From Demequina phytophila (GTDB lineage: Bacteria > Actinomycetota > Actinomycetes > Actinomycetales > Demequinaceae), in NCBI RefSeq assembly GCF_000971135.1, contig NZ_BBLW01000008.1, forward strand, positions 62,001 to 126,000: a stretch of 64,000 bases of DNA, given 5' to 3'. Of the stretch, positions 4,159 to 59,924 are shown one piece after another (position 1 is the stretch's first letter; each line of letters begins with the position of its first letter). Position numbers and translations under genes: made by a program. The notes beneath the pieces were generated by a model, which worked only from the letters and a program-made list of their open reading frames with translations, had not been told where the DNA came from and did not search any database.

Positions 4159-4306
4159 GGCGCCCTCCTCAGCAGGCCGGCGCCCGGAGCGCCGGTTGAG
4201 CCGACGCTAACCGCCCTGCTTTGCGCCTGCATACCGCCGAGGTAACGCTTGCGTGAACGCGTGTGCTGTCCGCCACACCAGGGACGATGCGGCAGTCGCC
4301 TCTCCC

Positions 4307-5116
4307 CTAGGGCGCGACGGGGGTGACGCCCAAGGGCGCCAGCCTCGCGGCTCCGCCATCGGCGGCCGTGAGCACCCAGATCCCGTCGTCGTGGACGGCG
4401 ATCGAGTGCTCCCAGTGCGCGGCCCGCGAGCCGTCGAGCGAGACGACGGTCCACTCGTCGTTGAGCACCGCCGAGTCGGGCGTGCCGATCACGAGCATGG
4501 GCTCGATCGCCAGGCACATGCCGGGCTTGACGCGGGGGCTGCGCCCGCGCACGCGATAGTTGGGGACGTCCGGCTCCATGTGCATCTCGGTGCCGATGCC
4601 GTGCCCGACGTATCCCTCGAGCGGATGGAGGCCCGCCTCGTCGGCGACGTCCTCGACCGCAGCCGAGACGTCGGAGATGCGCTCCGCCGTCGCGAGGGCC
4701 GCGATGCCGGCCCAGAGCGCGCGCTCCGTGGCCTTGACGAGGGCGGTGTCCGCCTTGGCCAGCGGCTCCCCGATGATGAAGGAGATCGCGCTGTCGCCGT
4801 GCCAGCCGTCCACGATCGCGCCGCAGTCCACCGACACCAGGTCGCCTTCGGCCAGGACCCGGTCGCCGGGGATTCCGTGCACGACCTCCTCGTTCACCGA
4901 GACGCAGGCGGTCGCGGGGAAGCCGTGGTAGCCGAGGAAGTTCGACGTCGCTCCGGCCTCTGCGATGACGCGCGCGGCGGCGGCGTCGAGGTCCGCGGTG
5001 GTCGCACCCGCGACGGCCGCGTCCTTGGCCGCGGCGAGCGCGTGCTGGACGATCACGCCCGCACGCGCCATCACCCGCATCTCCTCGCGGGTCTTGAGCT
5101 GGATGCGACCTGACAT
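4307..5116 (-). CDS. map: Type I methionine aminopeptidase
   Basis: Removes the N-terminal methionine from nascent proteins using two divalent metal ions. The 269 residues show the expected ligand motifs: VSVDCG and HGDSA (two Asp), GHGIG (His), IEPML (Glu) and the final Glu in HWEHS. It starts MSGRIQLKTREEMRVM. It is the last gene of secY-adk-map, two bases after adk. A GGGACGATGC motif lies 17 bp beyond its stop codon. Confidence 0.97.
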   Translation of the reverse strand: MSGRIQLKTREEMRVMARAGVIVQHALAAAKDAAVAGATTADLDAAAARVIAEAGATSNFLGYHGFPATACVSVNEEVVHGIPGDRVLAEGDLVSVDCGAIVDGWHGDSAISFIIGEPLAKADTALVKATERALWAGIAALATAERISDVSAAVEDVADEAGLHPLEGYVGHGIGTEMHMEPDVPNYRVRGRSPRVKPGMCLAIEPMLVIGTPDSAVLNDEWTVVSLDGSRAAHWEHSIAVHDDGIWVLTAADGGAARLAPLGVTPVAP

Positions 5117-5118
5117 CG

Positions 5119-5682
5119 TCAGCGCGCGACGGCGGTGACGAGGCGCTCGGTGACCTCGTCGATCTCGCCCAGGCCGTCGACCTGGACCAGGAGCCCACGC
5201 CCGGCGTAGAAAGCGGTGAGCGGCGCCGTGGAGGTCGCGTAGACCTCGAGGCGCTTGCGGATCACCGGCTCCGTGTCGTCCGCGCGACCCTCGATCTCGG
5301 CACGCTTGAGCAGACGCTCGGTCACCACGTCGAAGTCCGCGGTGATCTCGATCGCGACGTCGAGCTCCACGCCCAGATCGGCCAGCATCGAGTCGAGCTC
5401 GACGGCCTGCTCGGGGTTGCGCGGGTAGCCGTCGAGGAGGAACCCGGCCGCGGCATCGTCCTCGGCGAGGCGGGCGCGCACCATGGCGTTCGTCACCTCG
5501 TCGGGGACCAGCTGACCCGCGTTCATGTACTCCTGCGCCTTGCGGCCCAGCTCGGTGCCGCCCTTGACGTTGGCGCGGAAGATGTCGCCCGTCGAGATCG
5601 CGGGGACACCGAACCGCTCCGTGAGGCGGGCGGCCTGGGTGCCCTTGCCGGCGCCGGGGGGACCAAGGAGGACTGCACGCAT
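5119..5682 (-). CDS. adk: Adenylate kinase (short-lid form)
   Basis: Catalyses ATP + AMP to 2 ADP and maintains the adenylate pool. It has 187 residues, the short-lid actinobacterial form without the zinc-type lid insertion. The P-loop GPPGAGKGT is at residues 7-15, with the AMP-binding region STGDIFRANV and DGYPRNPEQA. Its ATG overlaps the secY stop by one base (TAATG), which indicates translational coupling. Confidence 0.97.
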   Translation of the reverse strand: MRAVLLGPPGAGKGTQAARLTERFGVPAISTGDIFRANVKGGTELGRKAQEYMNAGQLVPDEVTNAMVRARLAEDDAAAGFLLDGYPRNPEQAVELDSMLADLGVELDVAIEITADFDVVTERLLKRAEIEGRADDTEPVIRKRLEVYATSTAPLTAFYAGRGLLVQVDGLGEIDEVTERLVTAVAR

Positions 5683-6980
5683 TACTTGAGGAACCCTTCG
5701 TAGTGGTGCTGCTCCAGCTGGGACTGGATGCGCTTGACCGTGTCGAGACCCACACCCACGAGGATGAGGATGGATGTCCCGCCGAACGGGATCGAGTTGG
5801 ACAGGCCCAGCGCGACGAACAGCAGAGTCGGCACCAGCGCGACGATCGCGAGATAGAGCGAGCCGGCGGCCGTGATGCGGGAGAGGACGTAGTCGAGGAA
5901 CTCCGCGGTGGGAGTGCCGGGACGGATGCCCGGGATGAAGCCGCCGTACTTCTTCATGTCGTCGGCGACCTCGGTCGGGTTGAACGTGATCGCGGTGTAG
6001 AAGTACGCGAAGAACACGATCAGGAGGATGTAGAGCGCGATGTGCAGCGGCGCGCTCGACCGCGCGACGTGGTCGTTGAGCCACACGACCCATCCGGACG
6101 GGTCGGTCCCCTGGAACTGGATGATGACCTGCGGGATGGTGAGCAGCGACGACGCGAAGATCACCGGGATGATGCCCGCCATGTTGATCTTGAGCGGGAT
6201 GTAGGTCGACGACCCGCCGAGCATCTTGCGGCCGACCATGCGCTTCGCGTACTGGACCGGGATGCGGCGCTGCGACTGCTCCACGAACACCACGGCCGCG
6301 ATGACGATGAGCAGCACGATCGCCGTGAAGAACGTGTTGCGGGCACCGTTCGACGAGTTCCAGATCGAGGAGACGATGCCGGGGAAGCCCGCGGCGACCG
6401 AGGTGAAGATGAGCAGCGACATGCCGTTGCCGACGCCGCGCTCGGTGATGCGCTCGCCGAGCCACATGATGAACACGGTGCCCGCCGTCATGGTCATCAC
6501 CATGGTGAGGATGACGTTCCACGAGTCGTTCGGGATGACCGGGACGGAGCATCCGGGGAAGAAGATGTCGTTGCGCGCCATCGTGATGTACGAGGCGGAC
6601 TGGATCGCGGCGAAGCCGACGGTGATGTAGCGCGTGTACTGCGTCAGCTTCGCCTGGCCCTCGGAGCCCTCCTTGTGGAGCGTCTCGAAACGAGGGATGA
6701 GCACGCGCAGCAGCTGCACGATGATCGACGCGGTGATGTACGGCATGATGCCGAGCGCGAAGATCGACAGCTGCAGGAGCGCGCCGCCCGAGAACAGGTT
6801 GAGGATGGCGAAGCCCGCGTTGGTGCTCGTCTGCGCGAGGCAGAGCTCGACGTTGCCGTAGTCGACGCCGGGCGTGGGGATCGCGACACCGAGCCGGTAG
6901 ACGGCGATGATGCCGATGGTGAAGAGGAGCTTCCTCCGCAGATCCGGGGTGCGGAACGCACTCATGAAGCCACTCAGCAT
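5682..6980 (-). CDS. secY: Preprotein translocase subunit SecY
   Basis: Channel-forming subunit of the SecYEG translocon in the cytoplasmic membrane. It has 432 residues and the ten membrane segments typical of the family. Recognisable regions include YRLGVAIPTPGVDY near the N-terminus, the cytoplasmic segment around GSEGQAKLTQYTRY and the GGSSTYIPLKINMAGIIPVI segment. ATG at 6980 is chosen for its GGAGG site. A second Met at residue 6 is also possible. A strong hairpin separates it from rplO upstream, so secY-adk-map may have partly independent expression. Confidence 0.97.
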   Translation of the reverse strand: MLSGFMSAFRTPDLRRKLLFTIGIIAVYRLGVAIPTPGVDYGNVELCLAQTSTNAGFAILNLFSGGALLQLSIFALGIMPYITASIIVQLLRVLIPRFETLHKEGSEGQAKLTQYTRYITVGFAAIQSASYITMARNDIFFPGCSVPVIPNDSWNVILTMVMTMTAGTVFIMWLGERITERGVGNGMSLLIFTSVAAGFPGIVSSIWNSSNGARNTFFTAIVLLIVIAAVVFVEQSQRRIPVQYAKRMVGRKMLGGSSTYIPLKINMAGIIPVIFASSLLTIPQVIIQFQGTDPSGWVVWLNDHVARSSAPLHIALYILLIVFFAYFYTAITFNPTEVADDMKKYGGFIPGIRPGTPTAEFLDYVLSRITAAGSLYLAIVALVPTLLFVALGLSNSIPFGGTSILILVGVGLDTVKRIQSQLEQHHYEGFLK

Positions 6981-7019
6981 TGATCCTCCAGGGAAATCAG
7001 AACAGGTAGAGGATACGCG

Positions 7020-7049
7020 ACCGGGCCCGTCCTTCAGGACGGGCCCGGT
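7020..7049 (-). terminator. Hairpin between rplO and secY (terminator or attenuator)
   Basis: Perfect 13-bp inverted repeat (7020-7032 and 7037-7049) with a 4-nt loop, immediately after rplO on the minus strand. No long T-run follows, as is common in high-GC actinobacteria. It probably lowers read-through from the ribosomal-protein genes into secY-adk-map. Confidence 0.7.
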
Positions 7050-7059
7050 GCGATCACTG

Positions 7060-7722
7060 CTAGCCCTCGTTGACCGAGCCGCCAGCGGCCTCGATCTTGG
7101 TCTTCGCGGACTGCGAGACCTTGTCGGCGTCGACCAGGGTGACCTTGACGGCGATCTCGCCGTCACCCAGGACCTTGACGGGCTGGTTGCGGCGGACCGC
7201 ACCCTTCGCCACGAGGTCCGCCTTGGTCACCTCGCCGCCCTGCGGGAACAGCTCGGAGAGCTGGCCCACGTTGACGACCTGGTAGTACACCTTGAACGGG
7301 CTCTTGAAGCCACGCAGCTTCGGGATGCGCATGTGGATGGGCGTCTGACCACCCTCGAAGCGCTCCGGAACCTGGTAGCGAGCACCGGTGCCCTTGGTAC
7401 CGCGGCCCGCGGTCTTGCCCTTCGAGCCCTCACCACGACCCACGCGGGTCTTCTTGGTGTGCGACCCGGGGGCCGGACGGAGGTGGTGGACCTTGAGGGT
7501 CGTCACCTTCTCCGCGGGCTCCTCCACCTTGGGCTCGGCCTTCTTGGCGGCCGGCTTCTTGGCGGCCGGCTTGGCCTCGTCGGTCGCGGCCTTCTTGGCA
7601 GCGGGCTTCTTCGCAGCAGCGGGCTTGTCAGCCGCAGCCTTCGCCGGAGCCTTCTTGGCGGCCGGCTTCTTGGCGGGCTTCTCCTCGACGGCGTCGTCCG
7701 CCGGCTTCTTGGCCTCAGCCAT
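7060..7722 (-). CDS. rplO: 50S ribosomal protein L15 with a long Lys/Ala/Pro-rich N-terminal extension
   Basis: Large-subunit assembly protein. Residues from about 73 to 220 are normal L15 ([31 protein letters not shown] onward, in pieces). Residues 1-72 are an unusual histone H1-like extension of repeated [15 protein letters not shown] units mixed with acidic stretches. The upstream start is supported because ATG at 7722 overlaps the rpmD stop (TGATG). L15 is normally about 145-155 residues. The extension could bind rRNA or DNA, but its role is unknown. Confidence 0.95.
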
Positions 7723-7904
7723 CAGTCAACCTCCTCAACGGTGACCAGGTGGTCCACCGCCTTGACCATCCCGCGGATCTCGGGACGGTCCTCCTTCACG
7801 ACGATGTCGCCGATGCGCTTGAGGCCCAGCGACCGCAGGGTCTCGCGGTGCTGCGGCTTCGTGCCGATCGCCGACTTCTTCTGAACGACCTTCAGTCGTG
7901 CCAT
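7722..7904 (-). CDS. rpmD: 50S ribosomal protein L30
   Basis: A 60-residue L30, [32 protein letters not shown] onward (quoted in outline), with the family's RETLRSLGL helix. It lies two bases after rpsE, and its stop overlaps the rplO start. This is the standard spc operon order rpsE-rpmD-rplO. Confidence 0.97.
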
Positions 7905-7906
7905 GA

Positions 7907-8476
7907 CTAGTTCACCCCCGCTGCCTGCGCGCGGAGCATCGCGGCCGGGGCCACGTCCTCCACCGACTTGCCGCGACGGGCCGCGACGGCCTCGGGGCGC
8001 TCGAGGCGCTTGAGGGCGTCGACGGTCGCGTGCACGATGTTGATCGCGTTCGACGAGCCGAGCGACTTGCTCAGGACGTCGTGGATGCCGGCGCACTCGA
8101 GCACCGCGCGCACCGGACCACCGGCGATCACACCGGTACCCGGCGACGCGGGACGAAGGAACACGACGCCCGCGGCGGCCTCACCCTGCACGGCGTGCGG
8201 GATGGTGCCCTGGATACGGGGGACGCGGAAGAAGTTGCGCTTGGCCTCCTCGACACCCTTCGAGATCGCGGCCGGCACCTCCTTCGCCTTGCCGTAGCCG
8301 ATGCCGACGTTGCCCTCGCCATCGCCGACGACCACGAGAGCGGTGAAGCTGAAGCGACGACCACCCTTCACGACCTTGGCGACGCGGTTGATGGTGACGA
8401 CGCGCTCGACGAACTTGTTCTCCGGCTCGCTGTCGCGGCGGTTGCCGCCACGGCGGCCGCTGTTGTTGTCAGCCAT
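7907..8476 (-). CDS. rpsE: 30S ribosomal protein S5
   Basis: Small-subunit protein at the mRNA entry site, important for decoding accuracy. It has 189 residues: a basic N-terminal extension ([11 protein letters not shown]), then the S5 double-stranded-RNA-binding fold ([34 protein letters not shown]) and the C-terminal domain ([17 protein letters not shown]). It lies between rplR and rpmD. Confidence 0.98.
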
Positions 8477-8499
8477 AATTCCTCACTCCTGGCCGCGCC

Positions 8500-8871
8500 C
8501 TAGAGGGCGAGGCCCGCCTCTCGGGCACCGTCGGCCACGGCGGCCACGCGGCCGTGGTACTTGTTGCCGCCACGGTCGAAGACCACGGCCTCGATGCCCG
8601 CGGCCTTGGCGCGCTCGGCGACCAGCTGGCCGACCTTCGACGCCTTGGCAGACTTGTCGCCGTCCATCGCGCGGACGTCGGCCTCGAGGGTCGACGCCGA
8701 GACGATGGTCTTGCCGACGGTGTCGTCCACGATCTGCGCGACCATGTGGCGCGAGGAGCGGGAGACCACGAGGCGGGGACGAGCAGCGGTGCCGGAGATC
8801 TTCTTGCGCAGGCGGAAGTGACGGCGCTTGCGCTGAACCGCCTTGCCCTTGCCCTTGATTGCGATACCCAT
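8500..8871 (-). CDS. rplR: 50S ribosomal protein L18
   Basis: Binds 5S rRNA in the central protuberance. It has 123 residues with a very basic N-terminus ([19 protein letters not shown]) and the conserved [16 protein letters not shown] and [12 protein letters not shown] segments. The gene starts 3 nt after the rplF stop. Confidence 0.98.
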
Positions 8872-8874
8872 GTC

Positions 8875-9411
8875 TTACTTACCCGTCTTTCCTGCCTTGC
8901 GGCGAACCTGCTCGCCGGCGTAGCGGACGCCCTTGCCCTTGTACGGCTCGGGCTTACGAATCTTGCGGATGTTCGCCGCGACCTCGCCCACCTGCTGCTT
9001 GCTGATGCCGGCAACGGTGAACTTGGTGGGGCCCTCGACCGTGAAGGTGATGCCCTGCGGGGGGCTCACCACGACGGGGTGCGAGAAGCCGAGCGCGAAC
9101 TCGAGGTCCGAGCCCTTGAGCGCGACGCGGTAACCCGTGCCGACGATCTCGAGCTTCTTCTCGTAGCCGGCGGTCACGCCGGTCACCATGTTCGCGATGA
9201 GCGTGCGGGTCAGGCCGTGAAGCGACTTCGAGACGCGCTCGTCGTTCGGGCGCTTGACCTCGAGGCCCTCATCGCCCTTCTCCACGGTGATGGGAGAGGC
9301 GACGGTGTGGGTCAGGGCGCCCTTGGGGCCCTTCACCGTGACGTCGGCACCCTCGATGGTCACGTCCACTCCGGCGGGAACCGGAACGGGCATCTTGCCA
9401 ATGCGGGACAT
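8875..9411 (-). CDS. rplF: 50S ribosomal protein L6
   Basis: Large-subunit protein near the sarcin-ricin loop and factor-binding site. It has 178 residues, starting [17 protein letters not shown] and ending with the conserved region [25 protein letters not shown] (in part). It is in standard spc operon order after rpsH. Confidence 0.98.
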
Positions 9412-9432
9412 TGCTCTCGTTCTCCTTTCCGG

Positions 9433-9831
9433 TTACCAGACGAACGCGACGACCTCGCCGCCGACGCCCTTCTTCTCGGCCTCACGGTCGGTCAGCAGAC
9501 CGGAGGAGGTGGACAGGATGGCCACGCCGAGGCCGCCGAGAACCTTGGGCAGGTTCGTGGACTTCGCGTACACGCGGAGACCGGGCTTCGACACACGGCG
9601 CACACCGGCGAGCGAGCGCTCGCGGTTCGGGCCGTACTTCAGCGTGAGGGTGAGGGTCTTGCCCACCTCGGCGTCCGCGACGGCGGAGCCGGTGATGTAG
9701 CCCTCGGCCTCCAGGATCTTGGCGATGTTCGCCTTGAGCTTGGAGTGCGGCATCGCCACGGTCTCGTGGTAGGCCGCGTTCGCGTTGCGCAGACGCGTCA
9801 GCATGTCTGCGATCGGGTCAGTCATCGTCAT
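9433..9831 (-). CDS. rpsH: 30S ribosomal protein S8
   Basis: Central-domain 16S rRNA-binding protein and, in E. coli, the translational regulator of the spc operon. It has 132 residues, [18 protein letters not shown] to GGEVVAFVW. The open frame continues upstream, but MTMTDP is the family start and has a GAGGAAGAG site. An inner Met at residue 3 is also possible. Confidence 0.97.
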
Positions 9832-9886
9832 GAGTGTTGAACTCTTCCTCGCCGTGGTTTCCCTAGGGGACCTGTGGCGTAGTGGT

Positions 9887-10072
9887 TTACCAGCTGCTCT
9901 TGGTGATGCCGGGCAGCTCACCGCGGTGAGCCATCTCGCGGAAGCACACGCGGCAGAGGCCGAACTTGCGGTACACCGAGTGCGGACGACCGCACTTCTG
10001 GCACCGGGTGTAGGCGCGGACGGCGAACTTCTGCTTGCCGGCGGCCTTGTTCTTCAGCGCAGTCTTGGCCAT
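9887..10072 (-). CDS. rpsZ: 30S ribosomal protein S14 type Z
   Basis: Zinc-binding 61-residue S14 with ligands Cys24, Cys27, Cys40 and Cys43 (CQKC...CRVC). Actinobacteria often keep this form in the spc operon and a zinc-free paralogue elsewhere that is induced under zinc starvation. Only the zinc form is seen here. Also called rpsN1. Confidence 0.97.
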
Positions 10073-10075
10073 GTC

Positions 10076-10636
10076 CTACTTCTCCTTGAACGGGAAGCCC
10101 AGCTGCTTGAGCAGCGAGCGGCCCTCGTCGTCGGTGGTGGCGGACGTCACGATGGTGATGTCCATGCCGCGCACGCGGTCGATCTTGTCCTGGTTGATCT
10201 CGTGGAACATCGACTGCTCGGTGAGACCGAAGGTGTAGTTGCCGTTGCCGTCGAACTGCTTCGGGCTGAGGCCGCGGAAGTCGCGGATGCGGGGCAGCGC
10301 GATCGAGATCAGGCGGTCCAGGAACTCCCACATGCGGTCGCCGCGCAGCGTGACGTGCGCGCCGATCGGCTGGCCCTCACGCAGCTTGAACTGCGCGATG
10401 GACTTGCGGGCCTTGGTGACCTGCGGCTTCTGGCCGGTGATCGCGGTGAGGTCCGCGATCGCGCCCTCGATGAGCTTCGAGTCCTTCGCGGCGTCGCCCA
10501 CACCCATGTTGACGACGACCTTGACGAGGCCGCCGACCTGGTTGATGTTCTCGTGCGCGAACTCCTCGCGCAGCTGCGCGACGATCTCGTTGCGGTACTT
10601 GTCCTTGAGGCGCGGAGCGGTGGTCGCGGTGGCCAT
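10076..10636 (-). CDS. rplE: 50S ribosomal protein L5
   Basis: 5S rRNA-binding protein that contacts the P-site tRNA. It has 186 residues with the conserved [32 protein letters not shown] (in part) and [17 protein letters not shown] regions. It is translationally coupled to rplX by a one-base stop/start overlap. Confidence 0.98.
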
Positions 10637-16890: not shown

Positions 16891-16920
16891 GGGACGATGC
16901 GGTGGTCGCCGCATCGTCCC
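16891..16920. repeat. Inverted pair of the GGGACGATGC motif
   Basis: Perfect inverted repeat with 12-bp arms (16891-16902 and 16909-16920) around a 6-nt loop. Each arm contains one copy of GGGACGATGC. It lies between the tuf terminator and the S10 promoter and could act as a second terminator. It belongs to a motif family found throughout the window. Confidence 0.75.
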
Positions 16921-29134: not shown

Positions 29135-29185
29135 GGGACGATGCCCGGGCCCGCCTCCGCGCGCACGGAACCCGCGCATCGTCCC
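29135..29185. repeat. Inverted pair of the GGGACGATGC motif
   Basis: One copy (29135-29144) and its reverse complement (29176-29185), separated by 31 bp. The flanks extend the pairing with CCCGGG-type sequence. It is placed between the rplL hairpin and the rpoB promoter. Confidence 0.7.
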
Positions 29186-30451: not shown

Positions 30452-30480
30452 ATAGTACGGGACGCGCGCATCGTCCGCAA
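30452..30480 (-). promoter_or_regulatory. Probable rplJ-rplL promoter
   Basis: On the minus strand: -35 box TTGCGG (30475-30480), 17-bp spacer, -10 box TACTAT (30452-30457). The spacer contains GGACGATGC (reverse complement at 30468-30476), a near-full copy of the window's recurrent motif. A full copy lies just upstream at 30492-30501. Confidence 0.65.
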
Positions 30481-30556
30481 ATCGAATGCGGGGGACGATG
30501 CGGCGGACGCCTGGCGCGCCCGGGTGAACCCGGCATCGTGCCCCGGGATGCGAGAA

Positions 30557-31947: not shown

Positions 31948-32706
31948 CTAGATCTTGGTGACCTGGGTGAACGACAGCTCGACCGGGGTCTCCCGGCCGA
32001 AGATGGAGACGAGCACGTGGAGCTTCTGGCTCTCAGCCGAGATCTCCGAGATCGTGCCCGGGAGGGTCGCGAACGGGCCGTCGATGACGGTGACCGACTC
32101 GCCGACCTCGAACTCGACCTCGACGGGGGCCTGCGTGGTGGCGGACTCCTCGGCGGCGGCCGCCTCGGCCACCTCCTTGGGCGCCAGCATCGAGTAGACC
32201 TCGTCGATGGTGAGCGGGACGGGGTTGTGGGCGTGGCCGACGAAGCCGGTCACACCCGGGGTGTTGCGCACGGCGCCCCACGACTCGTCCGTGAGGTACA
32301 TGCGCACCAGGACGTATCCGGGCATCCGGACGCGGGTGACGAGCTTGCGCTGGCCGCCCTTGATCTCCGCGACCTCTTCCATGGTCACCTCGACCTGGAA
32401 GATGTAGTCCTCCATGTGGAGGCTCTCGATGCGGTGCTCGATCGCGGCCTTCACGCGCTTCTCGTGACCCGAGTAGCTGTGGACCACGTACCAGTCGCCC
32501 TCAAGGGTGCGGAGGCGGGACTTGAACTCGGCGACCGGGTCGGCGATCGGGGCGTCGATGTCGGCCTCGACCGCATCGTCCGCCTGCGGCTCGTCGGCGA
32601 TCTGCTCGTCCGCGGTCAGCTCGTCCGCGGGGGTCGCCTCGGCGACCTCGGGCTCCAGGCCGTCGATCTCGCTCATCACCGTCTCGTCACTCTTCTCGTC
32701 GCTCAT
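31948..32706 (-). CDS. nusG: Transcription termination/antitermination factor NusG
   Basis: Couples RNA polymerase to Rho or to S10 on the ribosome. It has 252 residues. About 65 acidic N-terminal residues typical of actinobacteria come first, followed by the NGN domain ([20 protein letters not shown] to [11 protein letters not shown]) and a C-terminal KOW domain ([21 protein letters not shown]). ATG at 32706 has a GGGGAG site. It lies 23 bp after secE. Confidence 0.97.
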
Positions 32707-33036: not shown

Positions 33037-33109
33037 CAGGGCAGGAGGGACTCGAACCCACAACCGCCGGTTTTGGAGACCGGTGCGCTACCAATTGCGC
33101 CACTGCCCT
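33037..33109 (-). tRNA. trpT: tRNA-Trp (CCA anticodon)
   Basis: Complete 73-nt cloverleaf on the minus strand. The acceptor stem AGGGCAG pairs with CTGCCCT, the anticodon loop is CTCCAAA with anticodon CCA, and the T arm contains GGTTCGAGTCC. The 3' CCA is not encoded. tRNA-Trp upstream of secE is a conserved arrangement in actinobacteria. Confidence 0.97.
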
Positions 33110-36350: not shown

Positions 36351-36390
36351 GGAAGGGGCGCATCGTTCCGCGGGACGATGCGCCCCTTCC
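36351..36390 (+). terminator. Terminator after aspC containing the GGGACGATGC motif
   Basis: Arms of 16 bp (36351-36366 and 36375-36390) with an 8-nt loop, 16 bp after the aspC stop. The descending arm and loop include GGGACGATGC (36372-36381), and the ascending arm carries its near complement. Confidence 0.8.
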
Positions 36391-41164: not shown

Positions 41165-41226
41165 AGGCGCGGAGGCTCGTCCGTGCGGACGATGCCGGGG
41201 CAGGGTCCGCGCCCTACGCTGGCCTG

Positions 41227-43127: not shown

Positions 43128-43162
43128 CCGGGCCGACCCGACCCGACCCGCGCATCGTCCCT

Positions 43163-46547: not shown

Positions 46548-46577
46548 CGGACGACCCGCCGGCGGCGGGACGATGCG

Positions 46578-46621: not shown

Positions 46622-47668
46622 CTAGATCTCGACGCCCACCGCGACAGGCTCGGGGACCAGCGTGATGCCGTAGGCGTCGTGCACGCCGTCGCGGACCGCA
46701 TGCGCGAGCTCGACGATGTCCGCGGCGGTGGCCGCTCCCCTGTTGGTCAGCGCGAGGGTGTGCTTGGTCGACAACGCGGCCGGCGCATCGTCCCTCACGG
46801 CGAAGCCGCGCGAGAAGCCCGCGTGCTCGATCAGCCAGGCCGCGGACGTCTTCACCAGGCCGTCGGCAGCCGGGTAGCGCGGCGCGTCCGCCGGGACGGC
46901 CTCGGCGTGCACGATCGGGTTGGTGAAGAAGGAGCCGGCGCTCCAGGTGTCGTGGTCGGCGGGGTCGAGGACCATGCCCTTCGACGCGCGCAGCGCGAGA
47001 ACCGCCTCGCGGACGTCGACGATGGGCACGCGGGCGCCCGGCTCGACGCCGAGCGCGGTCGCGAGCTGCTGATAGCGAACCGGCGCGGACAGGCTCGCCA
47101 TCCGCGTGTGGAAGGTGACGTCGAGCACCACGTAGCGCGGCGTCGGACCCCACGGCCCGTGGGTCATGGATCGCTTGAGCATCGAGTCGCGGTAGCCGAA
47201 CTCGGCCTTGACCAGGGGAAGCGTCTTCACGGAGCCCGCCTCGCGGTCCCATGTGCGCACCACCGCCACGATGTCCTTGACCTCCGCGCCGTACGCCCCG
47301 ACGTTCTGGACGGGGGTGGCACCCGTCGAGCCGGGGATGCCCGACAGCGCCTCGAACCCGCTCCATTCGGACGCCACGGCCTGCGCCACCAGGGCGTCCC
47401 ACGGGGTGCCCGCGGCGGCGGTGATCGACAGGCCGCCGCACGCGCCGTCGTTGACCAGCGACACGTCCTCGCGGCGGTCGCGGACCACCACGCCGTCGAA
47501 GCCCTCGTCGGCGACGAGCAGATTGGAGCCGCCGCCGACCACCAGGAGCGGCGTGCCGTCGGCGTCGGCGGAGCGGACGGCGTCGATCAGCTCGGGCTCG
47601 CTGTGCGCCTCGCGCAGCTCGCGTGCCGGGCCCCCGACGCGCAGGGTGGTCAACGCGGCAAGATTCAT
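46622..47668 (-). CDS. murB: UDP-N-acetylmuramate dehydrogenase
   Basis: FAD/NADPH enzyme that reduces UDP-GlcNAc-enolpyruvate to UDP-MurNAc in peptidoglycan synthesis. 348 residues. FAD-binding motifs LLVVGGGSNLLVAD and SGIPGSTGATPVQNVGAYG, type I landmark FGYRDSMLK, the proton-donor serine in SAGSFFTNP and the final Glu in ITLVPEP. ATG at 47668 overlaps the stop of the MFS gene before it (ATGA). It carries one in-frame copy of the recurrent motif, encoding RDDA. Confidence 0.96.
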   Translation of the reverse strand: MNLAALTTLRVGGPARELREAHSEPELIDAVRSADADGTPLLVVGGGSNLLVADEGFDGVVVRDRREDVSLVNDGACGGLSITAAAGTPWDALVAQAVASEWSGFEALSGIPGSTGATPVQNVGAYGAEVKDIVAVVRTWDREAGSVKTLPLVKAEFGYRDSMLKRSMTHGPWGPTPRYVVLDVTFHTRMASLSAPVRYQQLATALGVEPGARVPIVDVREAVLALRASKGMVLDPADHDTWSAGSFFTNPIVHAEAVPADAPRYPAADGLVKTSAAWLIEHAGFSRGFAVRDDAPAALSTKHTLALTNRGAATAADIVELAHAVRDGVHDAYGITLVPEPVAVGVEI

Positions 47669-50348: not shown

Positions 50349-50441
50349 GGCTCCCTCGGGACGATGCGCGGCGCGGCCGTGGCGCGGATGGTCGGGCGGG
50401 CGGCGCTAACCTGGGTGCTGACCGAGCCGAGGGAGAGCCGC

Positions 50442-51546: not shown

Positions 51547-51634
51547 GCATGCAGGCGCGTGGCGGATTCGGTCCTGCATACGGGTCGCCGCGCCTCGCAT
51601 GCAGGATTGTTGAACCGGCGATCCTGCATGCAGG
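51547..51634. repeat. Palindromic CATGCAGG repeat element, copy 1
   Basis: Contains GCATGCAGGAT (51597-51607) and its perfect complement ATCCTGCATGC (51621-51631) around a 13-nt loop, plus related copies at 51547-51555 and 51572-51580. Positions 51597-51634 match 61441-61478 at 31 of 38 bases without gaps. Confidence 0.75.
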
Positions 51635-53197: not shown

Positions 53198-53235
53198 GTG
53201 CCCTCTCTGACGCAGGGGAGAGCGCACGTCATCGA

Positions 53236-53806: not shown

Positions 53807-54252
53807 CAGACCTCCTCGCGCACCGCGAGGGTGCTGGTCACGGTGGACACCGGCGTGCCGTCCTCGTCGGACAGCTCGGTGCGCGTGGTCACCATGGAGA
53901 TGCCTCCGCGCTGCTTGATGTCGTCGATGTGCACGGTCGCGGAGATGAGGTCCCCGGCGATGATGGGCCGGTGGTGGGTGAAGCGCTCGTCGGCGTGCAC
54001 GACGCGGGAGAAGTCGACGCCCACCTCCGGGTCGACGACCACGTGGAACTCGGCCTGCTGGGCGATGACCACGGCGAACGTGGTGGGAGCCACCACGTCG
54101 GGGTACCCCTCCGCCCGGGCGGCCTCCTCGCTGCGGTGCGCGAAGGACCGGGCGTCCACCGCATCGGCGAACTCGCGGATCTTGATCCGCGTGACCTCGT
54201 AGGGCTCGTGGGGGCCGTACGCGCGGCCGACGGCGTCGATGTTCACTGGCAC
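53806..54252 (-). CDS. hadA: MaoC-like dehydratase N-terminal domain protein, HadA type
   Basis: 148-residue hot-dog-fold partner of HadB. Family sequence EPYEVTRIKIREFADAV, VAPTTFAVVIAQQ, HADERFTHHRPIIAGD. Lacks the catalytic Asp-His of HadB, as expected for the structural subunit. GTG at 54252 gives the family start MPVNIDAVGRAY. The hadA-hadB pair normally sits between rpmG and murB in actinobacteria, and here other genes have been inserted on both sides. Confidence 0.85.
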   Translation of the reverse strand: MPVNIDAVGRAYGPHEPYEVTRIKIREFADAVDARSFAHRSEEAARAEGYPDVVAPTTFAVVIAQQAEFHVVVDPEVGVDFSRVVHADERFTHHRPIIAGDLISATVHIDDIKQRGGISMVTTRTELSDEDGTPVSTVTSTLAVREEV

Positions 54253-54319
54253 ACCGCCACCCTATCCAGGAAGGGCGCGCCGCCGCGCGCGTGGGGACGA
54301 TGCCCGGGCCGGGCGGGCC

Positions 54320-55351
54320 TCACGGCCACCTGTAGGTGGCGACCAGGGCGCGGTGGTCGGACCATGGCATCGCGACCGTCGCCACCTCCGCGGCCACCAT
54401 GCCGGTGTCGCGCGCCAGCACGTGATCGATCCCGACCAGAGGCTGGCTGAGCCACATGGGCGGACCGTGGTGGAATCCCATGGGCCCGTTCGGGTAGGTC
54501 GCGTTCACGCCCGCGCCCGCCTCATCCGAGGCATCGGCGTAGCCGAGGCCCTCGATCTCGCGGAAGCCCGCATGGTCGCGCGTGGAGTTGAGGTCGCCGG
54601 CCACGATCACGGGCCCTTCCTGGGCGGCGAGCACGTCCACCAGGGCGGACAGGTCCGCGTCCCAGTCGGCGTGGTCGAGCACGCCGGGCGACTCCGGGTG
54701 GGCCGCCACGACCGTGAGATGCCCGTCGCCCGTGCCGACCTCCACGCGGATCGCCTGCGCGGTGAACCCGGGCAGGGACTCCGCCTGGGCGATGGGGTGC
54801 GTGGACCACAGCCCGGTGCCGAACTTCCAGTCGCCGGGGTAGGCGGCGCTGTAGGGCATCACGTCCGACAACCCGGCCTCGTCGAGGCGTTCGAGCGCCT
54901 GCGGGGTCAGCTCGGTGAGCACGAGCAGGTCGAGATCGCGGCCGTGCGCGAGCTCCACGACGGCGTCCGCGTCGGCCTGACCGTTGGCGAGGCTGAACGT
55001 CGCGACGCGCATCGCCACGTCGCCGTCCGCCGCGGAGGCGACGTAGAGGGGGGCGATCCACCAGCCGCACAACGCCGCGACCGCGAGGCTGAACGCGAGC
55101 AGCACCCAGGCGCGCGCGAGCAGCGACAGCACCACCGGGATCGCCGTCGCCAGCGTGACCCATGGCATGAGCGACACGAGCACGGCGAGCGGGCCCCACT
55201 CGACGCCCGTCAGGCGGGCGAGCACCGGCACCGGGATCGCGAGGAGCGCGAGGAAGGCGAGCGCCCGCGCGATCGCGGTGAGGCCTCGAGCCAGGGAGGA
55301 CAGCGCGGACGCGGAGGTGCCGTCGCGCGTGTCGACCCCCGGCTCCCCCAT
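54320..55351 (-). CDS. Membrane-anchored endonuclease/exonuclease/phosphatase-family protein (paralogue 1)
   Basis: 343 residues. Three membrane helices (about 24-100), then an EEP fold facing outward: ATFSLANGQAD, LTELTPQALE, VVAAHPES, AGDLNSTRDH, GIDHVLARD, WSDHRALVATY. The paired Asp/Asn and final Asp-His match metal-dependent phosphodiesterases/phosphatases of this family. Substrate not predictable. Tandem with a paralogue. Confidence 0.88.
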   Translation of the reverse strand: MGEPGVDTRDGTSASALSSLARGLTAIARALAFLALLAIPVPVLARLTGVEWGPLAVLVSLMPWVTLATAIPVVLSLLARAWVLLAFSLAVAALCGWWIAPLYVASAADGDVAMRVATFSLANGQADADAVVELAHGRDLDLLVLTELTPQALERLDEAGLSDVMPYSAAYPGDWKFGTGLWSTHPIAQAESLPGFTAQAIRVEVGTGDGHLTVVAAHPESPGVLDHADWDADLSALVDVLAAQEGPVIVAGDLNSTRDHAGFREIEGLGYADASDEAGAGVNATYPNGPMGFHHGPPMWLSQPLVGIDHVLARDTGMVAAEVATVAMPWSDHRALVATYRWP

Positions 55352-55392
55352 GACGGGAGTCTGCCATGGACCGGACGAATCGGACAGGGGCC

Positions 55393-56364
55393 TCAGCGTG
55401 CGGCGTACCCCACGACGAGCGCGCGATGGTCGGAGCCCGGCACCACCACCGACTCGACCGAAACCGCCGCGAGCGGCAGGTCGCGGGTCACCACGTGGTC
55501 GAGCGCGACCACCGTGGGAGGCGTGCGGTCCTGCGGGAACGTCGGCACCATCCCCGCGCCCGCCTCGTCGGCGGCGTCGACGTAGCCGCGCGACTCCAGG
55601 TCGCGGAACGCCCGGTGGTCCCGCACCAGGTTGAGGTCGCCTGCGGCGATCACCGGCCCGTCGACGCCGTCGAGCACGTCGGTGAGCCGCCGGGTCTCCT
55701 CCGCCCAGGCGCGGTGCACGAGCAGCTGCGGCGCGGCCGGGTGGATCGCGAGGACGGTGGTCGGGCCGGTCGGGAGCTCCACCTCCGCGCGCACCTGCCG
55801 GAACGTGTATCCGTCGAGCCCCTCCCAGCGTGTGAGGGGGTAGCGCGACCACAGCCCTGTCCCCGACCAGATCGCGTCGGGCAGCGCCGCCGCATGGGGC
55901 AGTACCTCCTCGAGGCCCGCCGCGACCAGCGCGTCGGCAGCCTCGGGAGTGAGCTCCTGGAGCGACAGGACGTCGACGTCATGCTCGCGCACCATCGCGA
56001 CCACCGCCTCGGCGTCGCCGCGCCCGGTGAGCAGGTTCGCCGTCGCGACGGTCAGGGTCACGTCACCCGACGCGCCCGCGGAGGTGTACAGCGGCGCGGT
56101 CCATGCCGCGCAGAGCACCGCCACCGCCACCGCCGCACCCGCCAGTACCCACGCACGGGCGATCACCGCGAGCACCAGCGGTACCGCGGCGACTACCACC
56201 ACCCACGGCACCAGCGGCACCACGTAGGCCAGCGGGCCCCGCTCGAAGCCCGTCAGCCGCACCACCACCGGCACGGCCAGCGCCGCGAGCGCGAGCCAGC
56301 CGCCCACCCAGGCGACCCCGCGCCACGTCGCCCGGCGCGTCCGGCCGGCCCCCGCATCGTCCAC
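55393..56364 (-). CDS. Membrane-anchored endonuclease/exonuclease/phosphatase-family protein (paralogue 2)
   Basis: 323 residues, same layout as its neighbour: three N-terminal helices (WLALAALAVPVVVRLTGFE...), then VATANLLTGRGD, LQELTPEAAD, AAGDLNLVRDHRAF, ALDHVVTRD, GSDHRALVVGY. The start GTG at 56364 is part of GTGGACGATGCG, i.e. the window's recurrent motif (minus its first two Gs) overlaps the start codon. The two genes are 41 bp apart and clearly a duplication. Confidence 0.88.
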   Translation of the reverse strand: MDDAGAGRTRRATWRGVAWVGGWLALAALAVPVVVRLTGFERGPLAYVVPLVPWVVVVAAVPLVLAVIARAWVLAGAAVAVAVLCAAWTAPLYTSAGASGDVTLTVATANLLTGRGDAEAVVAMVREHDVDVLSLQELTPEAADALVAAGLEEVLPHAAALPDAIWSGTGLWSRYPLTRWEGLDGYTFRQVRAEVELPTGPTTVLAIHPAAPQLLVHRAWAEETRRLTDVLDGVDGPVIAAGDLNLVRDHRAFRDLESRGYVDAADEAGAGMVPTFPQDRTPPTVVALDHVVTRDLPLAAVSVESVVVPGSDHRALVVGYAAR

Positions 56365-56419
56365 GGGCGCGAGCCTCCCACACGGGAGGCGAGGCGGGAC
56401 GCAGGCGGGCCGACACGCG

Positions 56420-56456
56420 ACGGGCGTCGCCCCCGAGGATCAGGGGCGACGCCCGT
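56420..56456 (-). terminator. Terminator after the alpha/beta hydrolase gene
   Basis: Perfect 14-bp arms (56420-56433, 56443-56456), 15 bp after the hydrolase stop on the minus strand. Confidence 0.75.
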
Positions 56457-56471
56457 GCGGTCGCGTCGCGC

Positions 56472-57335
56472 TCAGTGCGCCGCGTGTGCCTCGAGGTGCG
56501 TCGAGGCGAAGGCGAGCGCGGCGTCGGCCACCTCGTGCCAGCCGTCATCGATCACGAGCGAGTGGCCGCGCCCCGGGATCTCGAGGAACTCGGTGGTGGA
56601 CTCGTTGCGCGACTGGAGGCGGTACGCCGCGTGCGCGACCGCGCGGGGAACGATGGTGTCCTTCTCGCCGGAGATCACCAGCAGGGGTCCGCGCGCGGGG
56701 TTCCGGGTGTCGAGCCGGGTGGCCCTGCCCGCGGTGAGGTTCGCCGTGGCGGCCTGGAACAGCGGCCGCCCGGGTGCGGCGACGTGGTGCCGCGCGTAGA
56801 GCGCGCGGGCCTCGACCTCGCTCACCGCGTTGGCGAAGCCGTAACGGAACTCGTCGAACGTGAGCGTGACGGTACGGGTGCGGTTCGCGGGGTTACCGAG
56901 CACCGGGAACGCCGCCTTGAGGGTGGATGCCGGTAGCGGAAGCACGCCCTTGAACGGCGCGGGGTCGATCGCGACGGTCGCGGCGGCAAGGCCCAGGTCG
57001 GCGACGCGCTGGGCGAGAAGCCCCCCGAAGGAGTGGCCGATCACGAGCGGACGCCGGTTCAGCTCGCGGGCGATGCGCGCCACGTGGTCGGTGACCTCCT
57101 GAACCCCGACCCCGGCGAAGGCGCCGGGACGGTTGCGCGCGTCCTCGACGTCCTCCGGCTCCTCGGGCCAGCGGGCGACCACGACGGCATAGCCGGCGGC
57201 CTCGAGCCTCTCCTGCCAGGCGTCCCAGCTGCTCGCGAGCAGCCAGAGCCCGTGGACGAGCACGGCGGTGGGGCGGCCCGAGGCGTTGGCGGCGTCGATC
57301 TGGCGGACTTCCTGGGCGGTGAGCGTGGTGGTCAT
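56472..57335 (-). CDS. Alpha/beta-hydrolase fold protein
   Basis: 287 residues. Lid-less hydrolase with HGLWLLASSWDAW (oxyanion region), nucleophile Ser102 in GHSFGG, acid Asp in SGEKD and His in GRGHS. No signal peptide. Substrate unknown. Similar proteins are called non-haem chloroperoxidases or esterases. Divergent from a TetR regulator whose operators lie before its start, so expression is probably inducible. Confidence 0.9.
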   Translation of the reverse strand: MTTTLTAQEVRQIDAANASGRPTAVLVHGLWLLASSWDAWQERLEAAGYAVVVARWPEEPEDVEDARNRPGAFAGVGVQEVTDHVARIARELNRRPLVIGHSFGGLLAQRVADLGLAAATVAIDPAPFKGVLPLPASTLKAAFPVLGNPANRTRTVTLTFDEFRYGFANAVSEVEARALYARHHVAAPGRPLFQAATANLTAGRATRLDTRNPARGPLLVISGEKDTIVPRAVAHAAYRLQSRNESTTEFLEIPGRGHSLVIDDGWHEVADAALAFASTHLEAHAAH

Positions 57336-57386
57336 GATGGTCTCCTTGTCGGGTCTCGCCGGATCTCTCGACCCGGACGTGAGAGA

Positions 57387-57398
57387 GAACGATCGTTC
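57387..57398. promoter_or_regulatory. TetR operator 1
   Basis: GAACGATCGTTC, the core of the 16-bp perfect palindrome 57385-57400 (GAGAACGATCGTTCTC), in the divergent hydrolase/TetR region. The same core, GAACG-N2-CGTTC, recurs 66 bp away. Confidence 0.8.
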
Positions 57399-57452
57399 TC
57401 GCGCATTTCATTCCCGAATCCTCAGAAGTTTCTTCCGGGCATGATCCAAGAG

Positions 57453-57464
57453 GAACGAGCGTTC
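57453..57464. promoter_or_regulatory. TetR operator 2
   Basis: GAACGAGCGTTC (extended palindrome 57452-57465), directly upstream of the TetR start. Two sites of one consensus fit control of the hydrolase and autoregulation. Confidence 0.8.
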
Positions 57465-57480
57465 CGTTAGGGTGACCGAG

Positions 57481-58047
57481 ATGACCACCCCCGCAGCCCC
57501 CGCTCCGGACGCGCGCGAGCGCCTCGCGGCGACCGCCTCCGAGCTCTTCTACCGCGAGGGGATCCACTCGGTGGGCGTCGACCGGATCCTGTCCGAGGCC
57601 GGCATGTCACGCGCGACCATGTACCGCCACTTCGCCGGCAAGGAGGAGCTGGTGGTCGCGTACCTCGAGCGCGAGGACCGCGCCATCCGCGCACAGGTGG
57701 CGGGCGCCGGCGGCAGCCCGGACCCCCTGAGGGCCGCGGTGCACGGCATCGCAGAGGACGTCGCCCGGCGCCACACCCGCGGCTGCCCCTTCATCAACGC
57801 GGCGGCGGAGTATCCCGACGAGTCGAGCGCCGTGCGCCGCCTCATCGCGACGCACCGCGCGTGGTTCCGTGGCGTTCTCACGCAGGCCGCGGCGGGCGCG
57901 GGCGCGACCGATCCCGAGCGGGTGGCCGCCTCGCTGGTCATGCTGCGCGACGCCGCGCTGGTGGGCGGCTATCTCGACGGCGCCGCGTCGATCCGCGAGG
58001 CCTTCCTCGACTCGGCCTCCGCCGTCGCCGGGGTCGACCTCGCCTGA
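57481..58047 (+). CDS. TetR-family transcriptional regulator
   Basis: 188 residues. Helix-turn-helix in residues about 10-55 (ASELFYREGIHSVGVDRI; GMSRATMYRHFAGKEELV), then an all-helical ligand/dimer domain with the RGCPFINAAAEYPD motif of a common TetR subfamily. ATG at 57481 has AGGGTG six bases upstream. GTG at 57472 would add three residues. Likely represses itself and the hydrolase gene. Inducer unknown. Confidence 0.92.
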   Translation: MTTPAAPAPDARERLAATASELFYREGIHSVGVDRILSEAGMSRATMYRHFAGKEELVVAYLEREDRAIRAQVAGAGGSPDPLRAAVHGIAEDVARRHTRGCPFINAAAEYPDESSAVRRLIATHRAWFRGVLTQAAAGAGATDPERVAASLVMLRDAALVGGYLDGAASIREAFLDSASAVAGVDLA

Positions 58048-58076
58048 CCCACGGGCGGGAACAAGGGCACGAACGA

Positions 58077-58115
58077 CGAAGGCCCGCCGCCCCCGGGAGG
58101 GGCGACGGGCCTTCG
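58077..58115. terminator. Bidirectional terminator between tetR-family gene and rpmG
   Basis: Ten-bp outer arms CGAAGGCCCG (58077-58086) and 58106-58115, with an inner CGCCCC/GGGGCG stem, between convergent genes. Confidence 0.8.
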
Positions 58116-58129
58116 GTCGAAGCTGATGC

Positions 58130-58294
58130 TTAGCGCGTCTCGCGGTGCGCGGTGTGCTTGCCGCACTTCCGGCAGAACTTGGAGAGCTCCACACGGTCAG
58201 GGTTGTTGCGGCGGTTCTTGCGCGTGATGTAGTTGCGGTCCTTGCACTCGGTGCACGCGAGCGTGATCTTCGGACGAACGTCGTTCTTGGCCAT
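58130..58294 (-). CDS. rpmG: 50S ribosomal protein L33
   Basis: 54 residues, [20 protein letters not shown] onward. Zinc ligands Cys14, Cys17, Cys41, Cys44 are present (C+ form). Upstream are tRNA-Met and tRNA-Thr, and this order with hadAB, murB and secE following is the conserved actinobacterial block. Confidence 0.97.
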
Positions 58295-58363
58295 GGTTCT
58301 CTCCCAGCCTTGTAGGGACGCGCCTTGCGAAGGCGCATGAGCCAGGCGGTCTGCCTGATTCCG

Positions 58364-58437
58364 TAGCGAGGGCGGGGCTCGAACCCGCGACCTCACGATT
58401 ATGAGTCGTGCGCTCTAACCAGCTGAGCTACCCCGCC
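58364..58437 (-). tRNA. tRNA-Met (CAT anticodon, elongator type)
   Basis: 74-nt cloverleaf, acceptor GGCGGGG paired with CCTCGCT (two G-T pairs), D arm AGCTCAGCTGGTTAGAGC, anticodon loop CTCATAA, T arm GGGTTCGAGCCC. Lacks the C1-A72 mismatch of initiators. CCA not encoded. Confidence 0.96.
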
Positions 58438-58482
58438 GCGTGCCGCCTTGCGGCGGCGATCCATCGTACGTGACGACGGACG

Positions 58483-58558
58483 TGGAGCCCCGACAGGGAA
58501 TCGAACCCTGGACCTTTTCCTTACCATGGAAACGCTCTGCCGACTGAGCTATCGGGGC
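58483..58558 (-). tRNA. tRNA-Thr (GGT anticodon)
   Basis: Acceptor GCCCCGA paired with TCGGGGC, D arm TAGCTCAGTCGGCAGAGC, anticodon loop ATGGTAA, T arm GGGTTCGATTCC. The 3' CCA is encoded (58483-58485), unlike the tRNA-Trp and tRNA-Met here. Confidence 0.96.
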
Positions 58559-58652
58559 CAGCCGGAATAGGTTACACGCACTCGGCCTCAAAACAAAAAT
58601 CGGCCCCGAACCGCCCGGCAGAGCGTCGGTTGGCGCCCCTAGAGTGGCGCGC

Positions 58653-59924
58653 ATGACGTCGTCGCTCAGCGCCGCCGAGGCCCGCCGCATCCACCTGGCC
58701 GCGCAGTCCCTCGCGCGCCGCCGCCCCGCCGGCCGGCCCGGGCCCGTGCGCTTCCGCGAGTACCTGGAACGTCAGGGCATCCTGCAGCTCGACTCGGTCA
58801 ACGTGCTGGCGCGCGCGCATCACCTCCCCGTGTACTCGCGGTTCGGGCCGTACGACCGCGACCGGCTCGACCGCTGGCTGTGGTCGGGCGAGCACGCGTT
58901 CGAGCACTGGGGCCACGAGGCCTCGGTGATGCCGGTCGACCTGCTGCCCGCGCTCCACCATCGGATGACCGAGCGCGCCTCGTGGCAGGGCTACCACCGC
59001 GACCGTCTCGAGCGGGAGCGGCCGGGCCTGATCCCGCAGGTGCGCGAGGCCGTGGTCGCCCACGGCCCGGTCACCGCGACCGATCTCGAGCATCTGTCCC
59101 CCCGCGAGGGCGCCCGCGGCACGTGGTGGGACACGTCGCACGTCAAGGACGCCCTCGAGTACCTGTTCATCACGGGCGAGGTCGCCGCTTCGCGCGGGCC
59201 GCACTTCCGGCGTACCTACGACTCTCCCGAGAGGGCGTGGGGGCTGCCGCCCGCCTCGGCGCGCACGTGGGGGCTGCCGGCCGCCGCGGCTCATCAGGCG
59301 CTGTTCGACCGGGCGCTGCTCGCGACCGGCCTGGGCACGCCCGCGGACCTCGCCGACCACTTCCGTCTGCCCCGCTCGGCCAGGGACGATGCTCACCGCA
59401 AGGGCGCCGCGGCGGGCGCGGGCGCCTGGGCGGAGTCGGCGGTGGAGCGCGGCCTGGCCTCCTGGGTGTCCATCGAGGGCTGGAAGGAACCGGCCCTGCT
59501 GTCCGCCGCCGCCTCGGACCCGGGCCGGGCCACCGCATCGTCCCTCCTCAGCCCGTTCGACCCCGTCTGCTGGTACCGGCCGCGGCTGCTGCGGATGTTC
59601 GGCGTGGACTACCGCATCGAGATCTACACGCCGGCCGCCAAGCGCGAGTTCGGCTACTACTGCCTGCTGTTCCTGCTGGGCGACCGCTTCGAGGCGCGCG
59701 TCGATCTCAAGGCTCGACGCAAGGAGGGTGTGCTGTCCGTGGAGGCGGCGTGGCGCGAGCCCGGCCGGGCGCCGGGGGCGCGCCGGAGGGACGATGCCAC
59801 GGTCGCCCCGGCGCTCGCCGACGAGCTGCGCGTGATGGCGGGATGGCTCGGGCTCGACGCGATCGAGGTGGCCTCGCGGGGGGATCTCGCCGGCGCGCTC
59901 GCCGCCGCGGTGTCCGCGGGCTGA
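58653..59924 (+). CDS. Winged-helix protein of the YcaQ/AlkX family
   Basis: 423 residues, HTH_42 family. Landmarks LQLDSVNVLARAHHLPVYSRFG, EHWGHEASVMP, DALEYLFITGEVAASRG, LSPFDPVCWYRPRLLRMFG, RIEIYTP near Y-x-x-P and GYYCLLFLLGDRF. E. coli YcaQ and Streptomyces AlkX are DNA glycosylases for interstrand crosslinks, and the same role is inferred. Three copies of the recurrent decamer lie inside this gene, two encoding RDDA and one, inverted, encoding ASS. These fall in loops between conserved blocks. Confidence 0.88.
   Translation: MTSSLSAAEARRIHLAAQSLARRRPAGRPGPVRFREYLERQGILQLDSVNVLARAHHLPVYSRFGPYDRDRLDRWLWSGEHAFEHWGHEASVMPVDLLPALHHRMTERASWQGYHRDRLERERPGLIPQVREAVVAHGPVTATDLEHLSPREGARGTWWDTSHVKDALEYLFITGEVAASRGPHFRRTYDSPERAWGLPPASARTWGLPAAAAHQALFDRALLATGLGTPADLADHFRLPRSARDDAHRKGAAAGAGAWAESAVERGLASWVSIEGWKEPALLSAAASDPGRATASSLLSPFDPVCWYRPRLLRMFGVDYRIEIYTPAAKREFGYYCLLFLLGDRFEARVDLKARRKEGVLSVEAAWREPGRAPGARRRDDATVAPALADELRVMAGWLGLDAIEVASRGDLAGALAAAVSAG

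Follow-up and report, generated by a model that had tools for sequence, protein, structure and literature searches.

A short motif with dialects in Demequina, a putative DNA uptake sequence in the Actinomycetota

To our knowledge, DNA uptake tags have been described so far only in two Gram-negative families. In Neisseriaceae, genomes that carry the DNA uptake sequence (DUS) also code for ComEC and a type IV pilus. The DUS is described in PMC3630211 as a motif of about ten bases that is present in hundreds to thousands of copies, with dialects that vary around a fixed inner core and follow the core-genome phylogeny. The uptake signal sequence (USS) of Pasteurellaceae, in the account of PMC12616744, is made up of a 9-base core and a weaker downstream part, forms inverted pairs, and has variant types by clade. 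In the actinobacteria, Micrococcus luteus is reported to use Flp pili for natural transformation (PMC6370729), and the terms "uptake sequence" and "uptake signal" are absent from the text of the M. luteus transformation paper PMC4322843. Here, we describe the decamer GGGACGATGC of Demequina phytophila, which an earlier note had picked out in a stretch of 64,000 nucleotides (positions 62,001 to 126,000 of contig NZ_BBLW01000008.1), referred to below as the window. Demequina belongs to the Demequinaceae, phylum Actinomycetota. We consider it quite probable that a DNA uptake sequence operates in this genus and that GGGACGATGC is its dialect in D. phytophila, a function deduced from genome sequences, with no receptor found among the pilus-locus proteins and pilins compared.

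The Demequina motif shares several properties with the DUS. It is about ten bases long and present in many copies, its dialects differ by one or a few bases around an inner core and follow phylogeny, and it is accompanied by a type IV pilus and ComEC. The two differ in sequence, the Demequina core being CGAYGC and the DUS core CTG, with no resemblance between them. They also differ in host, since Demequina is of another phylum and has a Gram-positive envelope. Moreover, the Demequina motif has a second favored part downstream, no ComP-like basic pilin was found, and uptake is predicted. Density is lower, with 903 copies in 2.98 Mb here and about 1900 given for N. meningitidis genomes in PMC3630211. 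Likeness to the USS lies in the 9-base core with a weaker downstream part, the inverted pairs, and the clade-wise variants. The cores are unrelated, the phyla differ, and the downstream part in Demequina is G+C-rich (GG-Y-C-G) and nearer, whereas that of the USS is A+T-rich. M. luteus, of the same phylum, has uptake of the ComEA/ComEC type, proteins that Demequina also encodes, but uses Flp pili, while Demequina has a PilT-bearing type IV pilus.

The window contains 15 exact copies of GGGACGATGC, against a mean of 0.58 in 100 dinucleotide shuffles (largest 3). The earlier note had all 15 start positions right, and its hand estimate of about 0.3 expected copies led to the same conclusion of over-representation. 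In the whole genome, the 903 copies are divided into 440 forward and 463 reverse, and the reversed word, used as a control, occurs 10 times. In 529.7 kb of the genome, 161 copies are found where an order-4 Markov model expects 4.8. In 449.7 kb, GGGACGATGC is the 10-mer with the highest z (147 seen, 8.7 expected, order-5 Markov), and the 9-base GGACGATGC is the highest-z 9-mer of the same sequence. The two outcomes that the earlier note named as fatal, a frequency close to the Markov background and an enrichment limited to the window, were thus not observed. Both strands carry the motif in 10 of 11 contig blocks, the remaining block having only 2 sites. Strands are mixed within contigs (e.g., 24/29 in 174 kb and 23/14 in 124 kb), and a strand bias, which the earlier note had raised as a point to check, is absent. 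Among the loci compared, RpoC of this genome has 96.6% identity to that of Demequina rhizosphaerae and 93.6% to that of D. pelophila.

The anatomy of the motif is seen from its one-base variants in the 529.7 kb. Position 1 of GGGACGATGC is nearly free, with T found 11-fold and A and C about 4-fold above expectation, and the 9-base GGACGATGC (273 copies in the same 529.7 kb) is therefore the better core. Variants changed at positions 5 to 10 are about as frequent as expected or rarer, and the greatest excess is 2 copies against 0.4. Downstream of the core, the next base is preferably G and the fourth to eighth bases are preferably GG-Y-C-G, in intergenic and coding copies alike. The working motif is GGACGATGC plus the weaker GG-Y-C-G about one helical turn downstream. 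Little similarity between the flanks of different copies is left past about 20 bases.

Genes were called with our own caller in place of curated annotation, and a later pass filled gaps with any open reading frame (ORF) of at least 300 bases. Coding sequence makes up 92.5% of the sampled bases, and nearly half of the copies fall in the intergenic 7.5% (81 of the 161 in genes, 75 intergenic, 5 on a boundary). Density is 1.88 per kb between genes versus 0.17 per kb within them, and the 75 intergenic copies compare with 0.96 expected under an intergenic model. Within genes, 43 copies are on the same strand as the gene and 38 on the opposite strand. The fixed coding frame proposed in the earlier note is only roughly true: 39 of the 81 read x-Asp-Asp-Ala, and another 22, on the opposite strand, read Ala-Ser-Ser-x. 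Neighboring copies no more than 80 bases apart form 16 pairs, 11 of them convergent and inverted, the orientation that gives a hairpin, and five of these 11 share a 28-base spacing. Among the 55 non-coding copies with a neighboring gene 3' end, 33 fall within 30 bases of that end.

Across 47 genomes of the family (designated by G numbers), GGGACGATGC is present in at least 452 copies in 16 and in at most 81 copies in 31. Dialect words were searched in 40 kb from each of 20 genomes with few copies. In 15 of these, a close relative of the decamer is among the leading words, namely GGCCGATGCG, GGCCGATGCC, GGCCGATGCTG, or CCCGACGCTG, although weakly in G003, G017, and G032. No clear close relative was among the leading words in the 40 kb each from G004, G012, G026, G034, and G043. 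The word GGCCGATGC occurs 29 times against 2.6 expected in 40 kb of G001 and 35 times against 3.3 in G025, and its whole-genome counts in Demequina reach 2018 against 110 for the control. The base after the GGCCGATGC core is mostly G, C, or T depending on the species, or is mixed. Related Demequina thus carry close dialects, composed of GGCCGATGC followed by G, C, or T, and also of CCCGACGCTG, a CGACGC form. The summed count of GGMCGATGC[GCT] is at least 690 in 34 of the 47 genomes and 23 to 549 in the other 13, which include three genomes of two other genera. In all six groups examined, which differ in core, G is favored at the eighth base after the core together with at least one G at the fourth or fifth, with varying strength. 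The recurrence of this downstream pattern argues for one recognition system with shifting specificity.

Trees of MetE (29 genomes) and of MetE plus ComEC (20 genomes), midpoint rooted and drawn without printed split support, place the A and C dialects on opposite sides. Whole-genome counts of GGCCGATGC covered 35 of the 47 family genomes, and for this reason the A fraction was set by hand for G022, G035, G032, and G041. Dialects that follow the core phylogeny are the pattern reported for the DUS and USS, as set out in PMC3630211 and PMC12616744. A tree of PilB, PilT, and PilC spread the A dialect across several branches and was at first taken to indicate repeated dialect switching (polyphyly). 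This was withdrawn, since MetE and ComEC give two clean halves, so that the pilus genes are what moved. The pilus-locus set is made up of L182 plus L183 and the loci of 36 other family genomes. Two kinds of locus with different minor-pilin sets are found, both in both dialect halves, off the MetE/ComEC tree. From this departure we infer that pilus loci have been exchanged horizontally between species.

Persistence of sites was followed in aligned pilus-locus regions, where 44 of 82 motif sites are identical versus 1802 of 6537 flanking 9-mers. The count is the sum of 16 pairwise rows, overlapping and partly reciprocal, with unaligned sites left out. Sites that persist more than their flanks and yet turn over are as expected if uptake bias maintains them.

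Proteins of the predicted DNA-uptake machinery are widespread in the family. ComEC is encoded in 46 of the 47 genomes and PilT in all 47; most of these have two PilT copies, one adjacent to PilB and the other at a separate place. In the D. phytophila genome, ComEA (SLBB plus helix-hairpin-helix) directly precedes ComEC. Its pilus locus is composed of PilB, PilT, PilC, a pilin, two minor pilins, a large PilX-like protein, PilD, PilM, PilN, and PilO. A second PilT-like ATPase is encoded outside this locus (L185:8297-9385, minus strand) and is found in Demequinaceae and several other families of the order. A block of lower G+C and atypical codon usage at L182:1400-6900 reads as an acyltransferase-like gene and a membrane protein gene and was probably acquired.

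Outside the family, a strong PilT match was found in 14 of 48 genomes tested. In 13 of these 14, from other families of the order and sampled at 10-20 kb each with low power, no Demequina-like word was found, so a type IV pilus alone does not imply the motif. Three of the four local words checked in such genomes are clustered repeats. Families f4 and f20 have GGCCGATGC-to-control ratios of up to about 7 at low counts. G351, a member of another family with no PilT match at E 1e-60, has 1681 copies of GGCCGATGC versus a few hundred in others of its genus and was considered as a case outside Demequina. A sample of 116.6 kb holds 41 copies against 15 expected, with codon-like flank composition and without the downstream motif. 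The excess looks like a codon-context bias (GCC GAT GCx), and the genome was set aside as such.

In the mechanism that we propose, competent cells would bind motif-bearing DNA through a sequence-preferring surface protein, pilus retraction would carry the DNA to ComEA, and ComEC would pass a single strand inward for recombination. Because motif-bearing DNA would enter more often and recombination would spread and maintain the motif, copies would accumulate at the places of lowest cost, namely intergenic DNA and those reading frames in which genes tolerate them. Pairs would find a second use as hairpins where genes end. A change in receptor preference would rewrite the whole genome and give rise to a dialect.

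The receptor in this mechanism would be a surface protein, and one candidate considered was a stand-alone pilin gene that adjoins metE (L261:1501-1908, minus strand); metE is present in 26 of 30 loci. From Demequina, 31 open copies of this metE-linked pilin were extracted. There were also false pilin reads, one of them the broken gene of G002, and 16 genomes were removed from the set. The structure alignment included 29 of the 31 pilins, with G012 and G039 left out. The model has a confident pilin fold (pLDDT 87.7). Its sequence matches in PDB are for the most part major pilins, and most of the matches cover the N-terminal part; a fold search returned no match at E ≤0.001, the best being a pseudopilin filament at E 0.31. 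The isoelectric point ranges from 4.1 to 6.8 in the 31 copies, a measure of overall charge only, and a ComP-like basic DNA-binding stripe was not seen in these pilins as judged by charge only. One alignment column is Ile in all 12 A genomes compared and Val in all 11 C genomes. Columns that split the dialects are also found in MetE, which is unrelated (3), ComEC (15), and ComEA (1).

On the strength of its place in the genome, the metE-linked pilin was considered as a ComP-like receptor. It was not accepted, because other genes have such columns, the Mantel tests are not in its favor, it was not found beside metE in several motif-rich genomes, and it is acidic. Copies per Mb, calculated by hand from counts and genome sizes, are somewhat lower in G007, G022, G027, G002, and G006/G014/G042, in which no intact metE-linked pilin was found, than in near relatives that keep it. 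This comparison was not used, since G001 has an intact gene and a value equal to the low one of G002, and since G007 and G022 differ from their relatives in the base that follows the core. According to PMC12040237, two minor pilins of Streptococcus, one PilW-like and one FimT-like, bind DNA through basic residues. Among the PilW-like pilins compared here, those of G024 and G037 are basic and the one of D. phytophila is near neutral; no basic minor-pilin signature like that of Streptococcus stood out family-wide.

Co-variation of proteins with dialect was tested in 32 of the 47 family genomes, with fewer per protein; genomes with no clear CGATGC dialect were left out, as were G011 and G040. In Mantel tests without control for MetE, PilB, PilT, and PilD show a weak correlation with dialect. 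Against MetE, the metE-linked pilin has a partial r of 0.17 (p 0.09, n=20). ComEC has a partial r of 0.41 (p 0.0005), MetE being a weak species proxy, and no protein clearly followed dialect beyond phylogeny.

Several observations weigh against an uptake function. Ten of the 44 genus members are without a clear CGATGC dialect (at most 549 GGMCGATGC[GCT]), and of these G037 has CCCGACGCTG. ComEC is encoded in 43 and PilT in all 44 of the genus members. A leader-pattern search over about 1.27 kb downstream of metE did not find the linked pilin in G006, G007, G014, G017, G022, G027, G032, G042, and others, and G007, G017, G022, and G027 are among the motif-rich ones of this group. DNA-binding minor pilins have basic patches, whereas the pilins found here are mostly acidic. 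Once MetE is controlled for, no correlation with dialect is left for any pilus-locus protein, from which we infer that the specificity determinant lies outside the pilus locus or in few residues. Sites outlast their flanks less in the C dialect (e.g., 0 of 6 for G016/G001). The spacing of GGGACGATGC is no more even than random placement and indistinguishable from it. The two genomic windows with GC below 0.66 have no copies, but two windows are not enough to demonstrate that foreign DNA is depleted. No report of uptake or transformation in Demequina was found in open-licence PubMed Central, where one paper mentions the genus and natural transformation, once each.

One rival explanation is a genome-wide site for a chromosome-organizing or DNA-processing protein (nucleoid, segregation, or Chi-like). 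Some 900 copies genome-wide, a strict core, and near-random spacing would suit such a protein, and Chi and KOPS, too, are short motifs repeated hundreds of times along the chromosome. Chi and KOPS-type sites are strand-polar, biased along the replicon, whereas the Demequina motif has no strand preference in contigs (24/29 and 23/14) or relative to genes (43 same, 38 opposite). Dialects across whole genomes would, in addition, need a housekeeping protein and about 1000 sites to change together, which biased uptake would bring about by itself. We regard this rival as unlikely. Terminators of transcription, or other RNA hairpins at the ends of genes, are a very improbable explanation of the copies, even with 11 convergent inverted pairs, one of which folds at z -5.98, and 33 of 55 non-coding copies within 30 bases of a 3' end. 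No more than 32 of the 161 sites belong to the 16 close pairs, 81 sites lie in genes, and a scan around the pair at 29135/29176 found no terminator with a T run. Moreover, terminators need complementarity and not one fixed sequence.

Mobile repeats resembling repetitive extragenic palindromic (REP) elements or miniature inverted-repeat transposable elements would also explain the intergenic enrichment and the inverted pairs. REP elements are almost only extragenic and come with a RAYT transposase, and here 81 of 161 copies, about half, are in genes, mostly in two reading frames. The copies share no flanks, similarity fading past about 20 bases, and this origin is even less credible than that of terminators. 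An artefact of codon usage or base composition is the least probable of all. It could draw on the two frames that dominate in genes and on G351, whose 1681 copies of GGCCGATGC seem to be coding bias, but it is refuted by the 75 intergenic copies where 0.96 are expected, and GG-Y-C-G is favored downstream of intergenic copies too.

An uptake sequence, the resemblance to DUS and USS that the earlier note had suggested, is the best-fitting of the options it gave. It fits dialects that follow core-gene trees, the lack of strand bias, copies both between and within genes, inverted pairs, and the presence of ComEA/ComEC with a PilT-bearing pilus. The system is best read as having arisen independently of the DUS of Neisseriaceae and the USS of Pasteurellaceae, and would be the first known to us to be reported in a Gram-positive phylum. 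It appears rather likely that it is a third independent DNA self-recognition system for natural transformation and the first in a Gram-positive phylum, with at least four dialects in one genus, a two-part motif, a receptor encoded outside the pilus locus, and pilus loci apparently exchanged without a change of dialect. Judged by titles and abstract openings among the matches listed in open-licence PubMed Central, no report of an uptake-sequence motif in Actinomycetota was found. For the exact GGGACGATGC string, the papers among the matches listed look unrelated by title.

In the window, two inverted pairs are found. The first is made up of a left arm at 16891..16900 (+) and a right arm at 16911..16920 (-), with a hairpin of -37.9 kcal/mol (z -5.98), between genes that we take to be rpsJ and tuf. 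The second has its left arm at 29135..29144 (+) and its right arm at 29176..29185 (-), with a hairpin z of -1.58, and presumably lies between rpoB and rplL; a terminator scan around this pair found no T-run terminator. Other intergenic copies are at 4281..4290 (+), 36372..36381 (+), 43152..43161 (-), 46567..46576 (+), about 20 bases past a stop codon, 50358..50367 (+), and 54294..54303 (+). Copies in genes are at 46785..46794 (-), 59383..59392 (+), 59535..59544 (-), and 59788..59797 (+). The copy at 30492..30501 (+), with GGACGATGC nearby, is intergenic in the first gene calls and falls in a filler ORF in the later pass. The division into 11 intergenic and four genic copies given in the earlier note therefore holds for the first calls and becomes 10 and five in the later pass.

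The 9-base core GGACGATGC is also found at 5453..5461 (-), where the first G is absent, 30468..30476 (-), 32573..32581 (-), 41187..41195 (+), and 56354..56362 (-). Four of these, at 5453, 30468, 32573, and 56354, had been listed as shorter versions, and a fifth listed at 41188 is an 8-mer within the core at 41187. The window has three tRNA genes, all on the minus strand (33037-33109, 58364-58437, and 58486-58558). The palindrome CCTGCATGCAGG is over-represented at low copy number, at 51623 in the window, L009 7469, L021 16225/16247/16276 (a three-copy cluster), and L023 326, and is possibly a regulator site.

An uptake function, if true, predicts natural competence in Demequina. Members of this genus are without an outer membrane. 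A third case, in actinobacteria, would if true show that the trait evolves repeatedly and without the need for an outer membrane. Demequina would then offer natural dialect switches with which the receptor could be sought and the reshaping of genomes by uptake bias tested.

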